This document shows, one piece after another, positions 5,370-59,732 of a stretch of 64,000 nt of DNA. A program made the position numbers and the translations under genes. The notes below the pieces were generated by a model. The model saw nothing but the letters and a program-made list of their open reading frames with translations. It was not told the DNA's origin and ran no database searches. How positions within the stretch are numbered: the stretch's first letter is position 1; every line of letters starts with the position of its first letter. The DNA comes from Pseudomonadota bacterium (lineage in GTDB: Bacteria; Desulfobacterota; Binatia; Binatales; Binataceae): NCBI GenBank assembly GCA_021324755.1, contig JAJPIL010000014.1:1-64000 (forward strand), given 5' to 3'.

Positions 5370-6662
5370 CTAGGTTGACAGTGCCACAACTCGCGCCGCC
5401 GCGTCTACCGTGCGCTCGATGTCCTCCTCGCTGTGAGCAAGCGATACGAACATCGCTTCGAACTGGGAAGCGGGCAGAAAAACTCCCGCTTCCAACATAC
5501 CCGCGAAAAACCGCGCAAAAAGCGAGGTGTCAGCTTCCCGCGCTTGCTCACTGGTGCTCACCCGCTCACATCCGAAAAACACCGTAAGCAGCGAGCCAGC
5601 CCGATTCACGCATGCCTTGACCCGTGCCCGGTCGAGCGCTTTTTTGATACCTCCTTCGAGCGCCGAGCTAAGTTTGTCCAGCCGCTCGTAGACGCCCGGT
5701 TCGCGCAGCAAAGCAAGCGTCTCCAAACCCGCCCTTACAGACAGCGGGTTTCCTGCAAGCGTCCCAGCTTGATAAACCGGGCCACAAGGAGCCAGAAGCT
5801 CCATTAAGTCACGTCTTCCCGCTACTGCCCCTATCGGCATACCGCCGCCTATAACTTTGCCGAGCAGTATTAGGTCGGGTGCCAGACCTAGAGTCTCTGA
5901 GAACGCACCGTAGCACAGGCGAAAACCAGTGATTACTTCGTCGCAGATAAGCAGGCAGCCAAAGCGACGCGCCAAGTCCTGGAGGCCGCTTAAAAACTCT
6001 GGCTCGGGCCTGACGACCCCCATGTTAGCAGCAACCGGCTCGACTATTATCGCCGCTACTTCGCCGCGATTTGCCTCAAGGCATTGTTCGAGCGCGTCAA
6101 GCTTATTGTAGGGCACACTAAGGGTCAAGGAAGCGATTTCAGGCGGCACGCCAGCACTGTCAGGTACGCCAAAGGTAAGTGCGCCCGATCCTGCCCGCAC
6201 CAAAAGCCCGTCGCTATGCCCGTGATAGCATCCCTCAAATTTCACGATTTTGGGCCGGGAAGTGGCAGCTCGAGCGATCCGGATAGCGGTCATGGCAGCT
6301 TCGGTGCCGGAGTTCACTAGCCGGACTTCTTCGGCGCTCGAAACTGCACGCGTGATTTCTTCGGCCAGCGCAAGCTCGAGCTCGGTTGCAGCGCCGTAGC
6401 TAAATCCCTCGGTCGCTTGCTCTGCTACGGCCTTGACCACGCGCGGGTGAGCGTGGCCAACGATTGCCGGCCCGAACGCGCCGACATAATCGATAAAGCG
6501 ATTACCGTCGGCGTCGAAAACGTATGCACCCTGGGCACGCTCGATGAAAAGTGGCTTCAACCCTACCGCGCGCCAGGCTCGAACGGGTGAATTGACTCCT
6601 CCTGGAATCCTGCGCACAGCGCGCTCAAAAAGGAGCGCTGAACGCTCGCGTGAAATCCCCAT
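5370..6662 (-). CDS. hemL: Glutamate-1-semialdehyde 2,1-aminomutase
   Basis: 430 residues from ATG 6662, preceded by AAGGAAGAAGG; full length for the family. A class III PLP aminotransferase fold that converts glutamate-1-semialdehyde to 5-aminolevulinate, the C5 entry to heme. Visible signatures: 'PGGVNSPVRAW' at residues 20-30, 'NSGTEAAM' at about 117-124 (phosphate binding), 'DEVITGFR' at 241-248 and the PLP lysine Lys269 in 'LLGKVIGGG'. It is the first gene of a leftward transcript running into atpZ-I-B-E, so heme and ATP synthase supply may be co-expressed. It diverges from dnaA. Confidence 0.95.
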   Translation of the reverse strand: MGISRERSALLFERAVRRIPGGVNSPVRAWRAVGLKPLFIERAQGAYVFDADGNRFIDYVGAFGPAIVGHAHPRVVKAVAEQATEGFSYGAATELELALAEEITRAVSSAEEVRLVNSGTEAAMTAIRIARAATSRPKIVKFEGCYHGHSDGLLVRAGSGALTFGVPDSAGVPPEIASLTLSVPYNKLDALEQCLEANRGEVAAIIVEPVAANMGVVRPEPEFLSGLQDLARRFGCLLICDEVITGFRLCYGAFSETLGLAPDLILLGKVIGGGMPIGAVAGRRDLMELLAPCGPVYQAGTLAGNPLSVRAGLETLALLREPGVYERLDKLSSALEGGIKKALDRARVKACVNRAGSLLTVFFGCERVSTSEQAREADTSLFARFFAGMLEAGVFLPASQFEAMFVSLAHSEEDIERTVDAAARVVALST

Positions 6663-7118
6663 CTTTTGCCTTCTTCCTTAAAGCTTCTCGTCTCTTGCCA
6701 TCCTGCTGTCTAAGCCAACAAATCTAACCAAAGCAAAACAGGTATCAACTAGACGCCATTTTGGCTCCCCATCGTCTTGCGCTCTTGTCTTCTTGCCAAA
6801 GACCGACTTCGAATTCGCCTCTTTAAAACCGTCGTGGCACTAAAAAATTTGCACGGAAAATCAGGGGGTTAGGAAGATTTTTCAGCCACGAGCTTGTCCG
6901 TAGTCGCAAAAGCGTCTAACAATTTTCACCGCATCCGCCCTCGTCGCAGCGATGACCGGTTAATTAGCGGGGCGATGTATTCCGCCATGGAGGATAGGCA
7001 GGCAGTTCGATATGGCGGCGAATCACTGGTCATCGCGACGACTATCCAGCTTGAAAACAAGTTAATAGACACAACTAGCATACCGCCTATCCTCGGTCAG
7101 GATCGGCAAAAAATCTTG

Positions 7119-7127
7119 TTATCCACA
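7119..7127 (+). promoter_or_regulatory. DnaA box TTATCCACA
   Basis: Exact match to the consensus TTATNCACA, 90 bases before the dnaA start. With the inverted near-match at 7142-7150 it forms TTATCCACAG-N12-CTGTGTGTAA, an arrangement suited to DnaA autoregulation or origin binding. Confidence 0.75.
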
Positions 7128-7141
7128 GGTGTTGATAAAGC

Positions 7142-7150
7142 TGTGTGTAA
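7142..7150 (-). promoter_or_regulatory. Near-consensus DnaA box (TTACACACA on minus strand)
   Basis: One mismatch to TTATNCACA, inverted relative to the perfect box at 7119-7127. Taken as a second site only because of that pairing. Confidence 0.45.
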
Positions 7151-7216
7151 CCAGTCAGTAAGTGACCTGCGTCGACAGGGCGCTAGGCTTACGTGGTCGC
7201 AACTCAGGAGGACGGA

Positions 7217-8581
7217 ATGAACGGCTTGTGGGAAAGAGTTTCCGACCGCTTGCGAGAGACACTCGGTCCAGTGTGCTACGAGACCTGGATCGAGCCACTT
7301 AAGCTGGTTGGAATCGAAGGTAAGAAAGTTACTCTTGCCGCCCCTAACCGCTTCTTTCGTGACTGGGTTGAGCAACGCTACGTCGACGTGGTGCGTGCCT
7401 CGGTGGCCAAAGAAGCTGGCCAAGACGTAGAGGTTGCGCTCGTCCTGCCCCCGCCTAAGCAGCAAAGCGGGGCAAAAAACTCAGCCCAGCCCGAGCTTTA
7501 CGAAAACCTCGAGCTTACGCGCCAGCGCAACTCGTCGCCTGCTCGGGCCGAGCGCGGCGCAAATTTAAACCCGCGGTATACGTTCGCCGAATTCGTCGTC
7601 GGATCGAGCAATCAATTCGCTCACGCTGCCGCCTGGGCAGTTGCCAATCAACCGGGCGAGAAATACAACCCGCTGTTTATCTACGGCGGAGTCGGGCTTG
7701 GCAAAACGCATCTCGTGAGCGCCATTGGGCACCATCTACTGTCAAACCGCGAGCGAAAGCACAAGGTTATTTATCTTTCTGCCGAGCTTTTCATGAACGA
7801 GCTGATAAGCTCGCTCAAGCGCGACCGAATGGCCGAATTCAAGGAGCGCTTTCGCAAGGTCGACGCACTTATTATCGACGACGTGCAGTTCTTGGCAGGC
7901 CGAGAGCGCACCCAGGAGGAGTTTTTCCATACCTTCAACTCGCTGCACGCCGAACGGCATCAGATCGTGCTTACCTCCGACAAAGTACCGCGCGAGATAC
8001 CCGACCTCGAGGAACGCTTGCGCAACCGCTTTGAATCCGGCCTTATCGCCGACATCGCGCCGCCTGATCTCGAGACGCGCGTGGCGATCCTGCATAAAAA
8101 AGCTGCTCACGAAAATATCACGCTTTCTCCCGACGTGGCGCTCTACATAGCCCAAAACGTTACGTCCAACGTGCGCGAGCTTGAAGGCTCGCTCACTCGA
8201 CTAGTAGCGATGGCGTCGCTGCGCGATTGTCCAATAACGCTGGAATTCGCCCGCCAGGCCCTGCGAGACCTTATCGCGCAGGCGCCCGCCAAGCCTGACA
8301 TGGAAGCGATCGAACGCGCTACGGCCGAAGTCATGCGCGTGCGACTTGCCGACCTGCGCTCCAAAAAGCGCACTCAGCAGATCGCCTTCTGCCGGCAGGT
8401 AGCGATGTACTTATGCCGCAAACTAACTGACGCTTCGTTTCCCACGATCGGGGAGTACTTTGGGCGCGACCATTCCACCGTGATTCACGCCTATAACCTG
8501 ATCTCGAAGCGTGTCGCGGACGATCCAGCCTTTCGGCAGACGATCGAACGAATCGAGCGTCAGCTACGGCTACATCATTGA
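7217..8581 (+). CDS. dnaA: Chromosomal replication initiator DnaA
   Basis: 454 residues from ATG 7217, seven bases after AGGAGG; the upstream GTG at 7193 would hide that ribosome site. Domain I begins '[14 protein letters not shown]' and contains the W-x-x-P segment for helicase contact. The AAA+ core has Walker A 'GGVGLGKTH' (about 157-165) and Walker B 'LIIDDVQF' (about 218-225). The DNA-binding domain IV ends with '[11 protein letters not shown]', which reads the DnaA box. It melts the origin and loads the replicative helicase. The variable domain II is short and rich in Ser, Ala and Arg. Confidence 0.97.
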
Positions 8582-8828
8582 GACCTTGTGAGCAAAGGTG
8601 TGAACAACTGATGAATAACGCCTGGTGTTGCCGACAGGAATACAGAAGCAATGGGCAAGGCTCGCTTTAAGTGTGAACATCTGGCTGGGCCTACACACGG
8701 CTTTTGCACAGCGGATTTCCGCGATGGAATCTCGACTTTTAGCTTGTGTCCACATTTCAACAGGTCCTACTACCACTGCGAACCTAAATTTTTAAGAGTA
8801 AAAGCCAAGCAATAACAGAAGGCGAACA
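8582..8828. other. dnaA-dnaN spacer with DnaA-box-like sites
   Basis: 247 bases, no gene. Contains several one- or two-mismatch DnaA-box-like sequences: TGTGAACAA 8599-8607, TGTGAACAT 8672-8680 and TTTTGCACA 8702-8710. This density suggests the spacer may be part of the origin or a DnaA-binding control region. The dnaN ribosome site lies just before 8829. Confidence 0.4.
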
Positions 8829-9962
8829 ATGGAAGTCACAGTAGACCGAACGTCTCTCAAAAGCGCGCTGGCCCTGGTTCAAGGAGTGGTCGAACGACGT
8901 ACCACGATGCCTATCTTGAGTAACGTGCTCATCCAGGCCGAGGGCGACAGGCTTCGATTGGCAGCGACCGACCTAGAAATTGGTATTCGCACCGAGCTTG
9001 TGGCCGAAGTTAACCACGAAGGACTTGTAACGGCTTCAGCACGCAAGCTGTGGGAGATAGTTCAGGAAGCTGGCGCAGACGAGATAATACTTAGCGCATC
9101 GAATAACGAGCATGTCGAGGTGCGCTGCGGGCGGGCTCTCTTCAAGATGACGAGCCTTGACCCGAAGAGTTTTCCAGCGATGCCGACCGCTGGAGTCGAT
9201 TCGCAGGCCTCGGACAAGGAGCGAAGCCACCTAATGCTAAAAGCTTCGGTTCTTGCGCAAATGATCGACCGAGTGCTTTTCGCGGCCAGCCAGGACGAGA
9301 GTCGGTACACGCTAAATGGGGTGCATATCGAATCGCCTGATTCGGGAAAGCTGCGGATGGTGGCCACGGATGGGCACAGGCTTGCGCTGATCGAGCGGGA
9401 GGTGTCGGGCATGCGGCTTACGCGTGGCGCGATCCTGCCGCGAAAAGGCGTTGCGGAAATAGAACGATTGCTCAAACTCAAGGAGCAGGACGGGGAGGTC
9501 GAGCTAATCGTTGAACCGCGCCTGGCGTGGATCAAGGCTGGCAACACCCAAGTTTCGATGAGGTTGGTCGAAGGAGAGTTTCCTGACTACCAAGCTGTTA
9601 TCCCCAAGAGTTCTCGCTACGAAGTTGTGGTAAGCCGAGATCTGTTGGAAGCGGCGATCAAACGCGCAGCGATTTTCTCCAACGAGCGCTTCCACGGGGT
9701 CAAGCTCGAGCTCAGCGGCCAGACGCTTACGGTATCTTCGATCACACCCGGCCTTGGCGAGGCCAAGGACGTTATCGACGTCGAGTTCTCAGGCAACGAC
9801 TTCACGGTTGGGTTCAATGCGAGCTACCTTCTGCAGGTGCTTGCTGCCTTGCCGCAAGGATGCTCGATAACAATTGGACTTACCGACGAGGTCAGCCCGG
9901 GCGTAATCACGACACCAACTGATTCTAGCTACACGTATGTGGTGATGCCGATGCGGCTTTAA
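8829..9962 (+). CDS. dnaN: DNA polymerase III sliding clamp (beta)
   Basis: 377 residues from ATG 8829; the normal length is about 370. Three repeated clamp domains: 'MPILSNVLI' near residue 27, 'LNGVHIE' in the middle domain, and the ending 'SSYTYVVMPMRL', which is the conserved C-terminal peptide that lines the partner-binding pocket. The dimeric ring tethers the polymerase to DNA. It follows dnaA in the standard order. recF and gyrB, often next, are absent; the convergent glycosyltransferase follows after 43 bases. Confidence 0.97.
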   Translation: MEVTVDRTSLKSALALVQGVVERRTTMPILSNVLIQAEGDRLRLAATDLEIGIRTELVAEVNHEGLVTASARKLWEIVQEAGADEIILSASNNEHVEVRCGRALFKMTSLDPKSFPAMPTAGVDSQASDKERSHLMLKASVLAQMIDRVLFAASQDESRYTLNGVHIESPDSGKLRMVATDGHRLALIEREVSGMRLTRGAILPRKGVAEIERLLKLKEQDGEVELIVEPRLAWIKAGNTQVSMRLVEGEFPDYQAVIPKSSRYEVVVSRDLLEAAIKRAAIFSNERFHGVKLELSGQTLTVSSITPGLGEAKDVIDVEFSGNDFTVGFNASYLLQVLAALPQGCSITIGLTDEVSPGVITTPTDSSYTYVVMPMRL

Positions 9963-10005
9963 GGCGGCGCTTGCCTTTGGCTTTCAGTAAATCAGCTCAA
10001 GCCGT

Positions 10006-11811
10006 TTATGGGGATTTCGCTTGCGCGCTTGCCTTTTGCTGATCGCTCATAGAGCGGGTTACATCTCCAGTTCGCTCGAGTAGCAGATACTTCACTTGGG
10101 TGCGCTCGGCTGGCTCCCACGGAAAAGTCGGTTCGATGGACACGGTGGAAGTGGGAAAAGGAAGTGAGGCCGCATCTTTCGAGCGCGTGATAATCCATCT
10201 TAGGCGACCGTTGCTCGCGTAATTTTTCAGTTCCTCTGGATTTTCGAAGTCAGGTATCGGCTTTTTGGACCCAAGGTAGAAATCGAGTCCAGGTGCCCAG
10301 ATCTTGTACATTACAAGCGTACCGTCGGGTATACCGCCAGTGTGGGCAACCACCGTGCGGGCAAATGTGCGCTCGGGACGGTAGCGCTCGGCTGCAGGCA
10401 TCGCAAGCATGAAGATATAGACACAAACTAGCGTTGCGCCGACAAAAGTCGACACCAGCGTGGCGCGAAAAGTTTTTTTAACCGACGCATAAACGAACGC
10501 AATCGAAGCCGCAAGCCACAGCGCGGCAAAAGCTGCTCGATGGGGAAGTGGGGGAAGATTCGCAAAGCGCCCAGGCAGGACAGAGGGCGGCAAAAGCGCG
10601 AGCACGCCCAAAAGCGTCACAAACGTGAGCGCGAGATGGCCTAACCCGACGAGCCGGCGCGCCCAGGCCTGGCGCGGTGCGTCGGCAGCGGTAAGCGCGC
10701 GCGCAACGATAAGCGCGCAGGCGGGCAAAATCGGCAGTATGTAGTAGCTGCGACGGGAGCCAGAGGCGGTGAAGAAGGCAAAAATAGTCCAAAAAAAGGC
10801 GAGGACAAACCGGTCGCCCAGAACCTCCCTGTCGCTTCGACCCTGGAAGGTCTGGCTGTGGAAATATGTCAGCGCGCCAGGAAGGAACACCGACCACGGT
10901 GCCATGAGCGCGAAAATAACTGGAACGTAGAGCCAAATCGGCCCGCGATGGTCAAAAGGATGGACGAAGCGTAGGACGTTTTCCCGATAAACCATGTAGA
11001 GCCCCAAGTTCGAGCCGGTCTTGAGGTAGGAAAGCGCGAAAGGAGCGAGGTAAATCACCGCGGCTACCGCGACCGCAAGCGGCGTGTAACGATTGAAAAA
11101 CCACCGGTTGCGCTCGGCGATAAGCCTTGGAAGCGACTTAACCCCCCGATTTCGGATATCGCTCACAAAGGCCTTCCGTCCATCGGCAAAGGTGCTGTAT
11201 ACGCTTGCTACTAGAAGCGGCAACACAAAGCCCAACAGTCCCTTTGTAAGCGATGTAAGCGCCATCACCGACCAAAACGCTATCAGCCAGCTCAGCGCAG
11301 GATTCGGCCAGTTCTTGACGAACAGCGCCAGCGCGGCTAACTCGCCGGTGACGGTCTCCATGTCGGCCGAAGCGTGTCGGGAGAAAAATATAAAGCTATA
11401 GCTCGTGGTGAGAACTAGTCCTGACCAAAGCGCGGTCTCCGCGGAATAAAAATGCCTGCCCAAAACGAGAAGAATGGCCACCGCCATCAAGCCAGCGCAA
11501 GCCGAAGGCAAGCGGGTGGCTAGCTCGTCGACGCGCCGATTGAGTCCGCTTGCCGCCACAACAAACCAGTAAGAGAGCAGCGGTTTGTCATAGTAAACGC
11601 GGCCGTTGATCGTTGGCCAGAAGTAATCGCCGCTCACCACCATCTCGCGCGCCACTTCCGCCCATCTTCCTTCGGACGCCCACAGCGAGCGTGCTCCTAG
11701 GCGGGCAAAGAACATAAACGCCGCGAACAGCAGCACGCAACAAGCGCAGAGCTTGAAGTTCGTCTCGACAAAGCGTCCTTTCGAGTCTCCACCAGCCCTA
11801 TCCGCAAGCAT
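10006..11811 (-). CDS. ArnT-like glycosyltransferase, GT39/PMT family
   Basis: 601 residues with about a dozen hydrophobic helices. The first periplasmic loop has the acidic motif 'SEGRWAEVAREM', where family members place their catalytic acid, followed by 'NGRVYYDKPLLSYW', typical of ArnT/PMT lipid-linked sugar transferases. These enzymes move a sugar from an undecaprenyl-phosphate carrier onto lipid A, a protein or another acceptor at the outer face of the inner membrane. The soluble tail is about 100 residues. Donor and acceptor cannot be inferred. Monocistronic, convergent with dnaN. Confidence 0.85.
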   Translation of the reverse strand: MLADRAGGDSKGRFVETNFKLCACCVLLFAAFMFFARLGARSLWASEGRWAEVAREMVVSGDYFWPTINGRVYYDKPLLSYWFVVAASGLNRRVDELATRLPSACAGLMAVAILLVLGRHFYSAETALWSGLVLTTSYSFIFFSRHASADMETVTGELAALALFVKNWPNPALSWLIAFWSVMALTSLTKGLLGFVLPLLVASVYSTFADGRKAFVSDIRNRGVKSLPRLIAERNRWFFNRYTPLAVAVAAVIYLAPFALSYLKTGSNLGLYMVYRENVLRFVHPFDHRGPIWLYVPVIFALMAPWSVFLPGALTYFHSQTFQGRSDREVLGDRFVLAFFWTIFAFFTASGSRRSYYILPILPACALIVARALTAADAPRQAWARRLVGLGHLALTFVTLLGVLALLPPSVLPGRFANLPPLPHRAAFAALWLAASIAFVYASVKKTFRATLVSTFVGATLVCVYIFMLAMPAAERYRPERTFARTVVAHTGGIPDGTLVMYKIWAPGLDFYLGSKKPIPDFENPEELKNYASNGRLRWIITRSKDAASLPFPTSTVSIEPTFPWEPAERTQVKYLLLERTGDVTRSMSDQQKASAQAKSP

Positions 11812-55771: not shown

Positions 55772-55975
55772 ATGAAGGTAGTTATCCGCAATCCTAGGCG
55801 CGCGGAAGTCGAGCTTAAGGGGCCTATGACCGTGGGCGAGATTCTTGCCGCGCTTAGATTAAGCCCGGAAAGCCATCTCGTAATTCGTAACGACGAGGTC
55901 CTCACCCGCGATATCCGGGTTGAGGACAACGAACAGGTCGAGATTCTTTCCGCAATTTCCGGGGGTAGCGCGTAG
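55772..55975 (+). CDS. ThiS/MoaD-like sulfur carrier (TtuB-like)
   Basis: 67 residues from ATG 55772; the frame opens at 55685, but extra residues are unlike the family. Beta-grasp fold with 'MTVGEILAALRL' and 'LVIRNDEVLTRDIRVEDNEQV', ending 'ILSAISGGSA'. The terminal di-Gly (64-65), normally thiocarboxylated by an E1-like enzyme, is followed by Ser-Ala and so needs trimming. It is three bases before the TtuA-like gene, so it probably delivers sulfur for tRNA 2-thiolation. No E1-like gene is adjacent. Confidence 0.85.
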   Translation: MKVVIRNPRRAEVELKGPMTVGEILAALRLSPESHLVIRNDEVLTRDIRVEDNEQVEILSAISGGSA

Positions 55976-55978
55976 AGG

Positions 55979-56932
55979 ATGAGATGCCTTAAGTGCAAGG
56001 AAAACGCGGTCATCGAACTTCGGCAGCATAACGCCAGTTACTGTCGCACGCACTTCCTTTCGTACTTTACAAATAGGGTGCGCCAAAATATCGAGCACAG
56101 GCGAATGTTTGCCCCTGATGACCGAATTTTGGTTGCTGTCTCAGGCGGCAAAGACTCGCTGGCCCTATGGGATGTACTGCTCGGGCTGGGCTTCAACGCG
56201 TCTGGCCTTCATCTGCATCTAGGAATTGGCGAGTACTCGAATCTGTCGCTTGAAAAGACGCGACACTTTGCTTCTTCTCGCGGCGCAGAACTTATCGAGG
56301 TAAATCTCGCCAAGGAATATGGGATGGGCGTTACGGAGCTATCGTCCAAAACCGGACGCGTACCCTGTTCCGCGTGCGGTCAGAGCAAACGATACTTGTT
56401 TAACAAGGTGGCGCTAGACCGAGGGTTTTCGGTTTTGGCTACCGGGCACAACCTCGATGACGAAGCGGCAACTCTGCTCGGCAACGTCCTGAGCTGGCAG
56501 ACGCAAGCGCTTGCGCGCCAATCGCCCGTGCTGCCGCGCACGCGTCCAACTTTGGTGAAAAAGGTAAAACCTCTCTACACCCTGACCGAGCGCGAAACGG
56601 CGCTGTACTGTCTGCTCAAGCGCATCGACTACGTCGAAGACGAGTGTCCCAACGCATTGGGCGCGAAATCGCTATTGTTTAAGGAAGTTTTGAACCGACT
56701 CGAAGAAAACATGCCGGGGGTTAAGCAAAGCTTCGTCAAGTTGTTCCTAAAGCGCATCCAGCCGCTGCTAAAGAGTGAACAAGACGTCGATGTCCGAGAT
56801 TGCGCCGTCTGCGGACAACCGACCACGCGCGAGATTTGCGCATTTTGTAGCCTCTGGCAGAAGGCGCTCAGCGGTGGCGTGGCATACAACGCGTCGAGCG
56901 GCGCTCAAATCGAGGACAGGCGCATCGATTGA
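55979..56932 (+). CDS. TtuA/Ncs6-type tRNA 2-thiolation enzyme
   Basis: 317 residues. N-terminal zinc site Cys3-x2-Cys6 and Cys22-x2-His25; PP-loop 'SGGKDS' (55-60) that adenylates the target uridine; [4Fe-4S] ligands Cys130, Cys133 ('VPCSACG') and Cys223 ('YVEDECPN'), the pattern of Thermus TtuA, which thiolates U54 of the T loop. C-terminal zinc finger 'CAVCG..EICAFC'. Related TtcA acts on C32 but lacks the N-terminal zinc site, and Ncs6/CTU1 acts on U34. Operonic with a sulfur carrier. Confidence 0.88.
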   Translation: MRCLKCKENAVIELRQHNASYCRTHFLSYFTNRVRQNIEHRRMFAPDDRILVAVSGGKDSLALWDVLLGLGFNASGLHLHLGIGEYSNLSLEKTRHFASSRGAELIEVNLAKEYGMGVTELSSKTGRVPCSACGQSKRYLFNKVALDRGFSVLATGHNLDDEAATLLGNVLSWQTQALARQSPVLPRTRPTLVKKVKPLYTLTERETALYCLLKRIDYVEDECPNALGAKSLLFKEVLNRLEENMPGVKQSFVKLFLKRIQPLLKSEQDVDVRDCAVCGQPTTREICAFCSLWQKALSGGVAYNASSGAQIEDRRID

Positions 56933-57082: not shown

Positions 57083-58507
57083 TTACTCCGCGCAGCAACT
57101 CAGTCTCGAAATGTCTTTGGTAAACGAGAGCGCGACGATCTTCAACGCCTCTGCCATCGTTGGATAGATGTGCAGCATTCCGACGAAGTCATCGATGGTC
57201 GCGCCAAGCCGTATCGCCATCGCGGCCTCGTGAATGACCTCGGCTGCGTCCATCCCGACGAGCGAAACGCCCAGTACGCGGCGGCTCTCCCGGTCGGCGA
57301 CCATCTTGACAAGACCCTTTGGATTGCGCACCGCCTGCGCTCTCGGCACCGCCTCCATCCTGACAAGGCGACAGGCGCATCGATAACCTCGCTCGATCGC
57401 CTGCTTCTCGCTAAGTCCGACAACGGCTACTTGGGGGTCGGTGAAGATGGCGCGCGGGATCACCCGATGGTCAACTTTGCGCCGCGCGTCGGTCAGCGCG
57501 TTGAGCGCCGCGATACCACCGTCCTGGGCCCCCACCGGCGTGGCCATTTGGCTATCTACGTTCGAGCCAATTACGTCGCCAGCGGCCCAAATGTGTGGTG
57601 CTGTAGTCTTGAGCTCTTCGTCGACGATAACTGCGCCGCGCTGATCTGTGCGGACGCCCGCTTTTTCCAGGCCAAGGTTCTCTGTGTTTGGGACCCTACC
57701 GGCCGCTACGAGCAGATGGGAAGAGCGCACAATCGTGCGGTTTGAGCCTTGCACTTCGACCGCAACTCCCGAGCCCTCGCGGCTGACCGATAAAACCTTA
57801 CTTGAGGTCAAAATGGTGATACCTTCCTCGCGCAAAATTTCTGCAAGCGTCTGGCCGACCTGCGGTTCGTAGGTTGGCAGAATCTGCTCGCTTGGCTCCA
57901 GGATCGTGACTTGCGTGCCTAGACGGTTAAAGAACTGTCCGAGCTCCAGGGCAATATAGCCGCCCCCGATTATGCTCAGCGACTCGGGCTGATCCTTGAG
58001 CTCCATGTCCTCATTACTGGTCAACAAGTCGCTAGTCAGAAAGGGCACCGAATCAAGCCCCTTGATCGCGGGAATAAACGGTCTTGAGCCAGTGGCGATT
58101 AAAAAACGATCCGCCTTTAAACGAACGTCTCCCACCTGAACCGTATACGGGTCTACAAAGCGCGCCGTGCCCTCGAAGACTCGGATTTGTTCGCCCAGGA
58201 TGCTTTCGTATTTTTTCTGGCGATAGTACGCGATGACCTCGTCCTTTTGATCGATGAGCTCATGGAAACTGAACTCTAAGCGAGCCGGCTTAATTCCGGG
58301 GTAACGCGGATGGGCGCTCTGGTGGATGAAGCTTGCGGCGGCGATCAGGTTTTTGGAGGGTAGGCAGCCCCGGTTTACGCACGTGCCTCCGAGTGTGCGG
58401 TTCTCCGTCATAGCTGCGGTCTTGCCAAGTTCAGCAGCTCGGATAGCCGCGGCAAAAGCAGTGGAGCCCGAACCTAGGATCACCAAGTCAAAATTTTCCG
58501 TTAGCAT
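57083..58507 (-). CDS. merA: Mercuric reductase
   Basis: 474 residues from ATG 58507 with GGAGGA just upstream; the frame continues to 58564. Flavin disulfide reductase: FAD motif '[20 protein letters not shown]', redox pair '[14 protein letters not shown]', NAD(P)H domain '[13 protein letters not shown]', dimer domain with '[10 protein letters not shown]'. The end 'RLSCCAE' is the vicinal cysteine pair that captures Hg(II) in true MerA proteins. It reduces Hg(II) to volatile Hg(0) in the cytoplasm. No N-terminal HMA domain is present. Confidence 0.92.
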
Positions 58508-58749
58508 AACTTCCTCCAATTGAGCGCCGTAGCGCTTATCGGCCAGCCGGTTATTAATTACCAAGGGCGTAAAGCAGCTTCGTACGATCTTTCGGCGCTG
58601 CTGACGAAATCGGCACTGGTGGAAATCGTACGTTCTTCACGCTTCGCCTCTTATGTTGGTTGCCGATTAAGGCTTCGCTATCGGACCGCATCCTGCCCTG
58701 CGCCCGTGGGAAAAGGTCTTACATAACGATAAATCGTTGCTCCGGCCAA

Positions 58750-59123: not shown

Positions 59124-59732
59124 ATGAAGTCGGAAAAACTAGGATGGTTGTCGGCCGTCTTGGCGTCGGTGTGCTGCTTGGTGCCGGTGGCTGCTGCGTT
59201 GATTGGTTTGGGAAGCGCTGGTCTCGGTTCGACGCTCGGGAGTCTTAGTCCTTACTTTTATCTCGGCGGACTTACGGTGCTGGCGTGCGCCTGGTTTTAC
59301 TTTGCGCGCGAAAGGCGCAAGGCTTGCGCCCTGAATACGGATGTCGGATGTCAACGCAGAGCGGTAGTCGCTCTCTCGGTTGCGAGCGTGATCGTAGCTT
59401 TCTTCGCAGGCTCGGGACTGGCGCCGATAGTTTTAAAGTTGCTCTTGCCTCCCGCTAAATTGGCTAGAACCTCGCAGGCTCGAGCGTCGCAGCGCGTTGC
59501 CGACAACCCTGGGGCATATTTGCGCAAGGTTCTTGCGGTCAAAGGGATGGATTGTGCCGCTTGTGTGCCCGTGATCAAGGGCAATTTAGATAAGGTCGAG
59601 GGCGTGCGCTCTATCGAAGTCAGCCTGCGCGACCAGACGGTCACGGTCGAGTACAACCCTGCTAAAGCGTCGGCAGAGCGACTGCTCGAGGCGATCAAGG
59701 CGGCCGGGTACGAAGCCCGTGTGGTGAATTGA
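59124..59732 (+). CDS. MerT-MerP fusion mercuric transport protein
   Basis: 202 residues. Residues 1-105 form a MerT-like membrane part with three helices and the Hg-binding Cys-Cys in helix 1 ('ASVCCLVPVAAALIG'). Then a linker of about 30 residues leads to a MerP-like HMA domain ('VLAVKGMDCAACVPVIKGNL', C-x2-C motif, ending 'AIKAAGYEARVV'). It imports Hg(II) and passes it to MerA. Fused MerTP proteins are known. It diverges from merA with the sigma relic between; merR and merB are not in the window. Confidence 0.88.
   Translation: MKSEKLGWLSAVLASVCCLVPVAAALIGLGSAGLGSTLGSLSPYFYLGGLTVLACAWFYFARERRKACALNTDVGCQRRAVVALSVASVIVAFFAGSGLAPIVLKLLLPPAKLARTSQARASQRVADNPGAYLRKVLAVKGMDCAACVPVIKGNLDKVEGVRSIEVSLRDQTVTVEYNPAKASAERLLEAIKAAGYEARVVN

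Follow-up and report, generated by a model that had tools for sequence, protein, structure and literature searches.

Adenylation of a sulfur carrier requires a free C-terminal glycine. Carriers that are trimmed occur in Wolinella (HcyD/HcyS), a system on which no report was found in the open-access literature. A known tRNA thiolation pair with a sulfur carrier is TtuB and TtuA of Thermus thermophilus (PDB 5gha, 5ztb and 5b4e), in which m1A58 speeds the transfer of sulfur by TtuA to U54 (available parts of PMC6418473 and PMC7912444). The product, m5s2U54, is described in reviews as a feature of thermophiles, as far as the accessible text of PMC7912444 goes. According to the sections available of PMC3980101, TtuB of T. 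thermophilus is also conjugated to proteins, and deletion of the JAMM protease roughly halves the tRNA thiouridine. Capped carriers with one or two residues behind the di-glycine are known together with JAMM proteases, namely QbsD, and PtmS2 and PtmS3 with PtmS1, all serving natural-product pathways (available text of PMC6006322), and in Deinococcus radiodurans the JAMM protease DR0402 cleaves a MoaD-MoaE fusion in which the carrier is joined via Gly-Gly to its client enzyme (PMC8832034, in part). The U34 thiolation of the NcsA/Urm1 type likewise combines a PP-loop Fe-S enzyme with a ubiquitin-like carrier. In the accessible portion of the open-access literature on TtuA/TtuB, sulfur carriers and JAMM, no report of a capped or fused TtuB was found.

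The window, a stretch of 64,000 nucleotides, contains a pair of this kind. The gene ttuB (55772..55975, plus strand) is an open reading frame for a ThiS/TtuB-type carrier of 67 aa ending SAISGG-SA, and its TAG stop is followed by AGG and then by the start of ttuA (55979..56932, plus strand; 317 aa), a predicted PP-loop [4Fe-4S] tRNA U54 2-sulfurtransferase. The spacer is thus three bases, and ttuB stands directly before ttuA as in the Thermus loci L094 and L102. The carrier scores 38.1 bits against the ThiS family (PF02597), for which the cut-off is 22.5, and matches T. thermophilus TtuB (5ztb, E 1.3e-11) in an alignment that includes SAISGG and ends there. It shares the family, the Ser-Gly-Gly end and the linkage to ttuA with TtuB, but the Thermus protein ends in the encoded Gly-Gly and here the codons for Ser-Ala follow (55967..55972, plus strand), making it a capped sulfur carrier for which removal of the cap is expected; because of these two residues a maturation step is needed. 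The enzyme is full length, with the N-terminal zinc domain (TtuA_LIM_N, PF22082, 35.1 bits) and the PP-loop domain (PF01171, 43.6 bits), and aligns over residues 1-295 with T. thermophilus TtuA (5gha/5b4e, E about 1e-102). It matches the NCBIfam TtuA model NF049949 at E 1e-86 and 290.6 bits, which is below the cut-off of 450 and compares with 126.7 bits for NcsA and 58.7 for TtcA; among PDB entries NcsA is far behind (6e-27). The alignment of 13 TtuA proteins shows C3, C6, C22, S55-G56-G57-K58-D59-S60, C130, C133, K137, C223, C275, C278, C287 and C290 as invariant, so that the SGGKDS of the PP-loop (residues 55-60; 56141..56158, plus strand), two of the three Fe-S cysteines in Cys130-x-x-Cys133 (56366..56377, plus strand), the third, Cys223 (56645..56647, plus strand), and the two zinc sites are all in place; the role of the Fe-S cysteines is taken from the available parts of PMC6225789 and PMC3980101. 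At position 25 the enzyme has the histidine of the CxxH motif, like T. thermophilus and unlike most relatives of the same class, which have cysteine. The initial annotation had read this locus as a 67-residue carrier ending Gly-Gly-Ser-Ala placed three bases before a TtuA with all its Fe-S and zinc cysteines, CxxC and CxxH, and the open reading frames, the alignment columns and the Pfam, NCBIfam and PDB matches bear it out. Judged by these sequence matches the identity of the pair is real and far beyond chance, and the pair is an ordinary TtuB-TtuA system with a capped carrier.

The pair lies 56 kb into a contig of 504 kb, in an assembly of 3.07 Mb that is 95.5% complete with 0.27% contamination. 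The genome is probably one of Binatota, class Binatia: four relatives of its class have loci that coincide in sequence with named records, L012 with L090 (Deltaproteobacteria NC_groundwater_231), L021 with L110 (Deltaproteobacteria DP_23), L033 with L131 (Polyangiaceae UTPRO1) and L038 with L148 (Deltaproteobacteria NC_groundwater_1023), and UTPRO1 names an order of Binatota, a group to whose 16S sequences RDP gives the label unclassified Deltaproteobacteria (PMC8262859). A misassembly is unlikely, given this position and an E1 on the same contig. Beside the pair are a mercuric reductase-like flavoprotein gene (57083-58564, minus strand) and a gene for a membrane protein with the heavy-metal-binding motif GMDCAACV (59124-59732, plus strand), both judged by eye.

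The E1-like partner and the JAMM peptidase that had been proposed as search targets are both present in the genome. The E1 is a MoeB with an N-terminal rhodanese domain, and the only JAMM (Prok-JAB) peptidase, with an intact HSHx7SxxD motif, is on a different contig from ttuBA; in the Ptm system, by comparison, ptmS1 clusters with ptmS2 (PMC6006322, in part). TrmFO (contig C14) and TrmI (contig C20), two further enzymes of the m5s2U54 pathway, are encoded as well. Five ThiS-family carriers were found, namely the TtuB of the window, a MoaD-MoaE fusion in which Ser-Gly-Gly runs on into MoaE (L001:1501-2202, G000 C20), a MoaD/CysO-like carrier ending AGGR, and two carriers with GGG at the end, one a ThiS and the other MoaD-like. 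Like D. radiodurans, the genome has a MoaD-MoaE fusion, here beside its one JAMM, and the fusion is expected to be a further substrate. Three of the five carriers would need cleavage after Gly-Gly, with one JAMM on hand. The suggestion of a dedicated peptidase is not supported, as the sole JAMM is unlinked to ttuBA and has at least two other candidate substrates in the genome. Genes resembling E1, threonine synthase and cysteine synthase lie close to the CysO-like AGGR carrier (L002 and L041, about 5957-10641, minus strand; neighbours named by eye), and the cluster is possibly one for thiocarboxylate-based amino-acid biosynthesis.

The tail behind the di-glycine had been taken as an oddity of this carrier, a view that the comparison with other loci does not support. 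The comparison covered 122 non-redundant TtuA loci, 46 from relatives of the class and 76 from named genomes among the matches listed (four duplicates dropped). A TtuB ending at most 1.2 kb upstream of ttuA was counted as linked, which gave 106 linked pairs and 16 loci without one (3 from the class and 13 from named genomes, with two fusions among them). Among the matches listed, 74 of the 106 linked TtuBs carry a tail past Gly-Gly, mostly of two residues (none in 32, one in 18, two in 44 and three or more in 12). The presence of the tail is tied to the start of the next gene: of the 55 pairs in which the two genes overlap at the ttuB stop and ttuA start, 54 are tailed, compared to 20 of 51 other pairs (Fisher p 5e-12, among the matches listed). 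A quick tree of TtuA requires at least 15 changes of the tail, and independent pairs agree in direction (6.6 the same way and 0.3 opposite on average; median p 0.03). TtuB was also searched for in 16 genomes that lack a copy close to ttuA and in four others. Nitrospira loci with ttuA alone (L111, L129, L132, L134, L138, L142, L144, L163 and L164) have TtuB elsewhere in the genome, and all nine of these strong matches end exactly in Gly-Gly. Two unlinked TtuBs of the class are still tailed (TADRIEKSA and AA); no strong TtuB match was found in two Nitrospira-labelled genomes (G200 and G207), and the pattern search did not recover the TtuB of L181.

The codons of the di-glycine suggest what the tie consists of. 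A gap of exactly 5 nt separates the Gly-Gly codons from ttuA in 42 of the 106 linked pairs among the matches listed. Where the distance (d) from these codons to ttuA is at most 13 nt, 58 of 76 pairs have GGA or GGG as the first glycine codon, against 6 of 30 pairs farther away (p 1.3e-7, among the matches listed). As a control, the di-glycine of the SGGKDS motif was scored in the same enzymes; its first codon is GGA or GGG in 28 of the 76 near pairs and 9 of the 30 farther ones, and the paired comparison with the near-ttuA codons is clear (58/76 versus 28/76, p 9e-6, among the matches listed). The range was first set at 3-13 nt (54/71 versus 10/35), and other cut-offs give a like result. The class loci show a strong bias (25/27 versus 1/16), the named genomes by themselves a weak one (33/49 versus 5/14, p 0.06, among the matches listed); in independent pairs of the tree the direction agrees with a median p of only 0.07. 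This suggests a second role for the di-glycine codons, as the site where ribosomes bind for ttuA, the tail being the spacer, and we infer, as the simplest reading, that they act as the Shine-Dalgarno sequence of that gene. The pair of the window shows only a loose geometry. The codons GGG GGT (55961..55966, plus strand) are at most a weak Shine-Dalgarno of ttuA, and because d is 12 and the genes do not overlap, the coupling there is weak or relict and the rule fits poorly.

In some Actinomycetota the two genes are one open reading frame with Gly-Gly kept at the junction. Such in-frame fusions were found at L150:2297-3442 (plus strand, genome G204), in genome G196 (L117/L186, at L186:502-1692, minus strand) and at L199-L204, L206-L208, L210 and L215; L205 is not fused. 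Both the L150 and the G196 fusion match ThiS, TtuA_LIM_N and ATP_bind_3. Among the relatives of G196, 35 of 149 genomes matched (G196 counted) in 36 places, and of the 30 loci examined 12 are fused (G196 counted), 12 have a separate TtuB (8 tailed) and in 6 TtuB was not found by pattern. Together with L150 this makes 13 actinobacterial genomes, and the fusion state changes at least three times on the quick tree. In all of them 4-11 residues lie between Gly-Gly and the first zinc cysteine, and trmI usually follows. A frameshift artefact is unlikely, as the arrangement is common to 13 genomes and most linkers lack Met. G196 holds both a separate capped pair (L180) and the fused pair, which could be two systems or contamination. 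These fusions resemble MoaD-MoaE and differ from it in that the carrier is joined to a tRNA thiolase; they come from Actinomycetota relatives, and the window has none.

Since the carrier needs a free C-terminal glycine, a fusion that retains Gly-Gly argues for cleavage. Caps and fusions together make maturation by a cut after Gly-Gly likely, in line with the trimming first proposed for this carrier. The JAMM protease is the most likely candidate for this step. The window carrier resembles QbsD and the Ptm carriers in its cap and genomic JAMM and differs from them in sitting with a tRNA thiolase. JAMM is above the cut-off in 12 of 13 fused genomes, though in most others too, and it does not track tails in either the class genomes (22/25 tailed, 17/17 tailless) or the named genomes among the matches listed (27/36 and 11/14). 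In G046, a genome that is 99% complete, TtuB is tailed and PF14464 has no match. As a marker of tails JAMM is ruled out, being equally high in tailless genomes.

The tail could also be a neutral accident, with the stop codon shifting by a codon or two for reasons unrelated to ttuA translation and a general carboxypeptidase or JAMM trimming the product. The varied residues agree with this (the first is Ala in 28, Ser in 17 and one of twelve others in the rest of the 74 tails, among the matches listed), as do the loose pair of the window and the 20 tails among the 51 non-overlapping pairs. However, the tie between tail and overlap appears in both sets separately (18/18 versus 7/25 in the class; 36/37 versus 13/26 in the named genomes, among the matches listed), and the 5 nt peak, the codon bias in excess of the SGGKDS control and the nine tailless unlinked Nitrospira carriers also speak against drift, which we regard as rather unlikely. 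Another possibility is that the capped carrier is mainly a protein modifier or serves another sulfur pathway (cysteine, Moco), with TtuA acting on U34 or C32. The protein conjugation in T. thermophilus (PMC3980101, in part) and the five carriers of the genome would fit, but bit scores and PDB matches both place the enzyme much nearer to TtuA than to NcsA or TtcA, and at E 1e-6 none of the 25 TtuA-less genomes examined, 18 of which belong to the same family, yielded a TtuB. In addition, a TrmI-like gene lies directly after ttuA in 35 of the 39 class loci and 41 of the 74 named ones with at least 250 nt downstream (among the matches listed), and the copy at L150 matches PF08704 and PF14801; with m1A58 speeding the thiolation, this linkage supports U54 as the target. 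The ttuA of the window has no trmI neighbour, and neither do the f2 relatives. Altogether we find this possibility improbable.

The initial annotation had also seen in the pair a hint of a thermophilic host, and the pair would then be a thermo-adaptation. The reviews that tie m5s2U54 to thermophiles point in that direction, and on the quick TtuA tree the nearest rows to the window by path are a class relative and then Bacillota and Thermaceae, without a supported clade. In contrast, the scan of named genomes, which listed 80 of at least 580 loci, gave Actinomycetota, Nitrospirota, Rokubacteria, Chloroflexota, Bacillota, Thermaceae and others, and the TtuBA carriers among the matches listed include Nitrospira, Acidimicrobiia, Rokubacteria and other genomes from soil, freshwater and groundwater. 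TtuA is also carried by 46 of 145 relatives (own genome counted). As TtuBA occurs in so many mesophilic lineages and non-thermal habitats, it is not a thermophile marker and a thermophilic host is not implied, and we consider such a host very improbable. Among the 145 relatives TtuA is present in many other families and was not found in any other genome of the same family, so that either horizontal transfer into the genus or loss elsewhere in the family would explain it.

We consider it probable that the pair is a TtuB-TtuA relay for U54 with a capped precursor cut by JAMM, the cap arising from ttuA coupling. TtuB would be made as a short precursor, which a peptidase, most likely the single JAMM metalloprotease of the genome, would cut after Gly-Gly; the MoeB-rhodanese E1 would adenylate and thiocarboxylate the exposed glycine, and TtuA would pass the sulfur via its [4Fe-4S] cluster to the m5U54 made by TrmFO, assisted by m1A58 from TrmI, yielding tRNA 2-thiolated at position 54. 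Across the relatives, the cap would exist mainly because of the translational coupling of ttuA to ttuB, the invariant Gly-Gly being encoded by GGR-GGN, a putative Shine-Dalgarno for ttuA, and the cap codons forming the spacer to the overlapping start; some Actinomycetota may have taken the pair further, to the in-frame fusion. The pattern of coupling, caps and fusions, read from sequence statistics, is the interesting part. It suggests that the cap is a by-product of how the start of the second gene is encoded, and that the carrier has to lose it in order to work. Extended to most mesophilic bacteria with TtuA, the proposal is evenly balanced for us: TtuB would be a proprotein whose Gly-Gly codons, as the ttuA ribosome-binding site, force a cap that a peptidase (probably JAMM) removes, the end point would be the actinobacterial TtuB-TtuA polyprotein cut after Gly-Gly, and m5s2U54 would be found in many mesophiles. 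This would give a physical reason for a C-terminal extension on a ubiquitin-like carrier, as an amino-acid motif and the start signal of the next gene share the same DNA, and would link ubiquitin-style precursor processing to tRNA modification. If this is true, carrier maturation is a possible control point, and the ttuB-ttuA-trmI operon predicts m5s2U54, so far a mark of thermophiles, in many mesophiles, which makes s2U54 widespread outside thermophiles a testable prediction.
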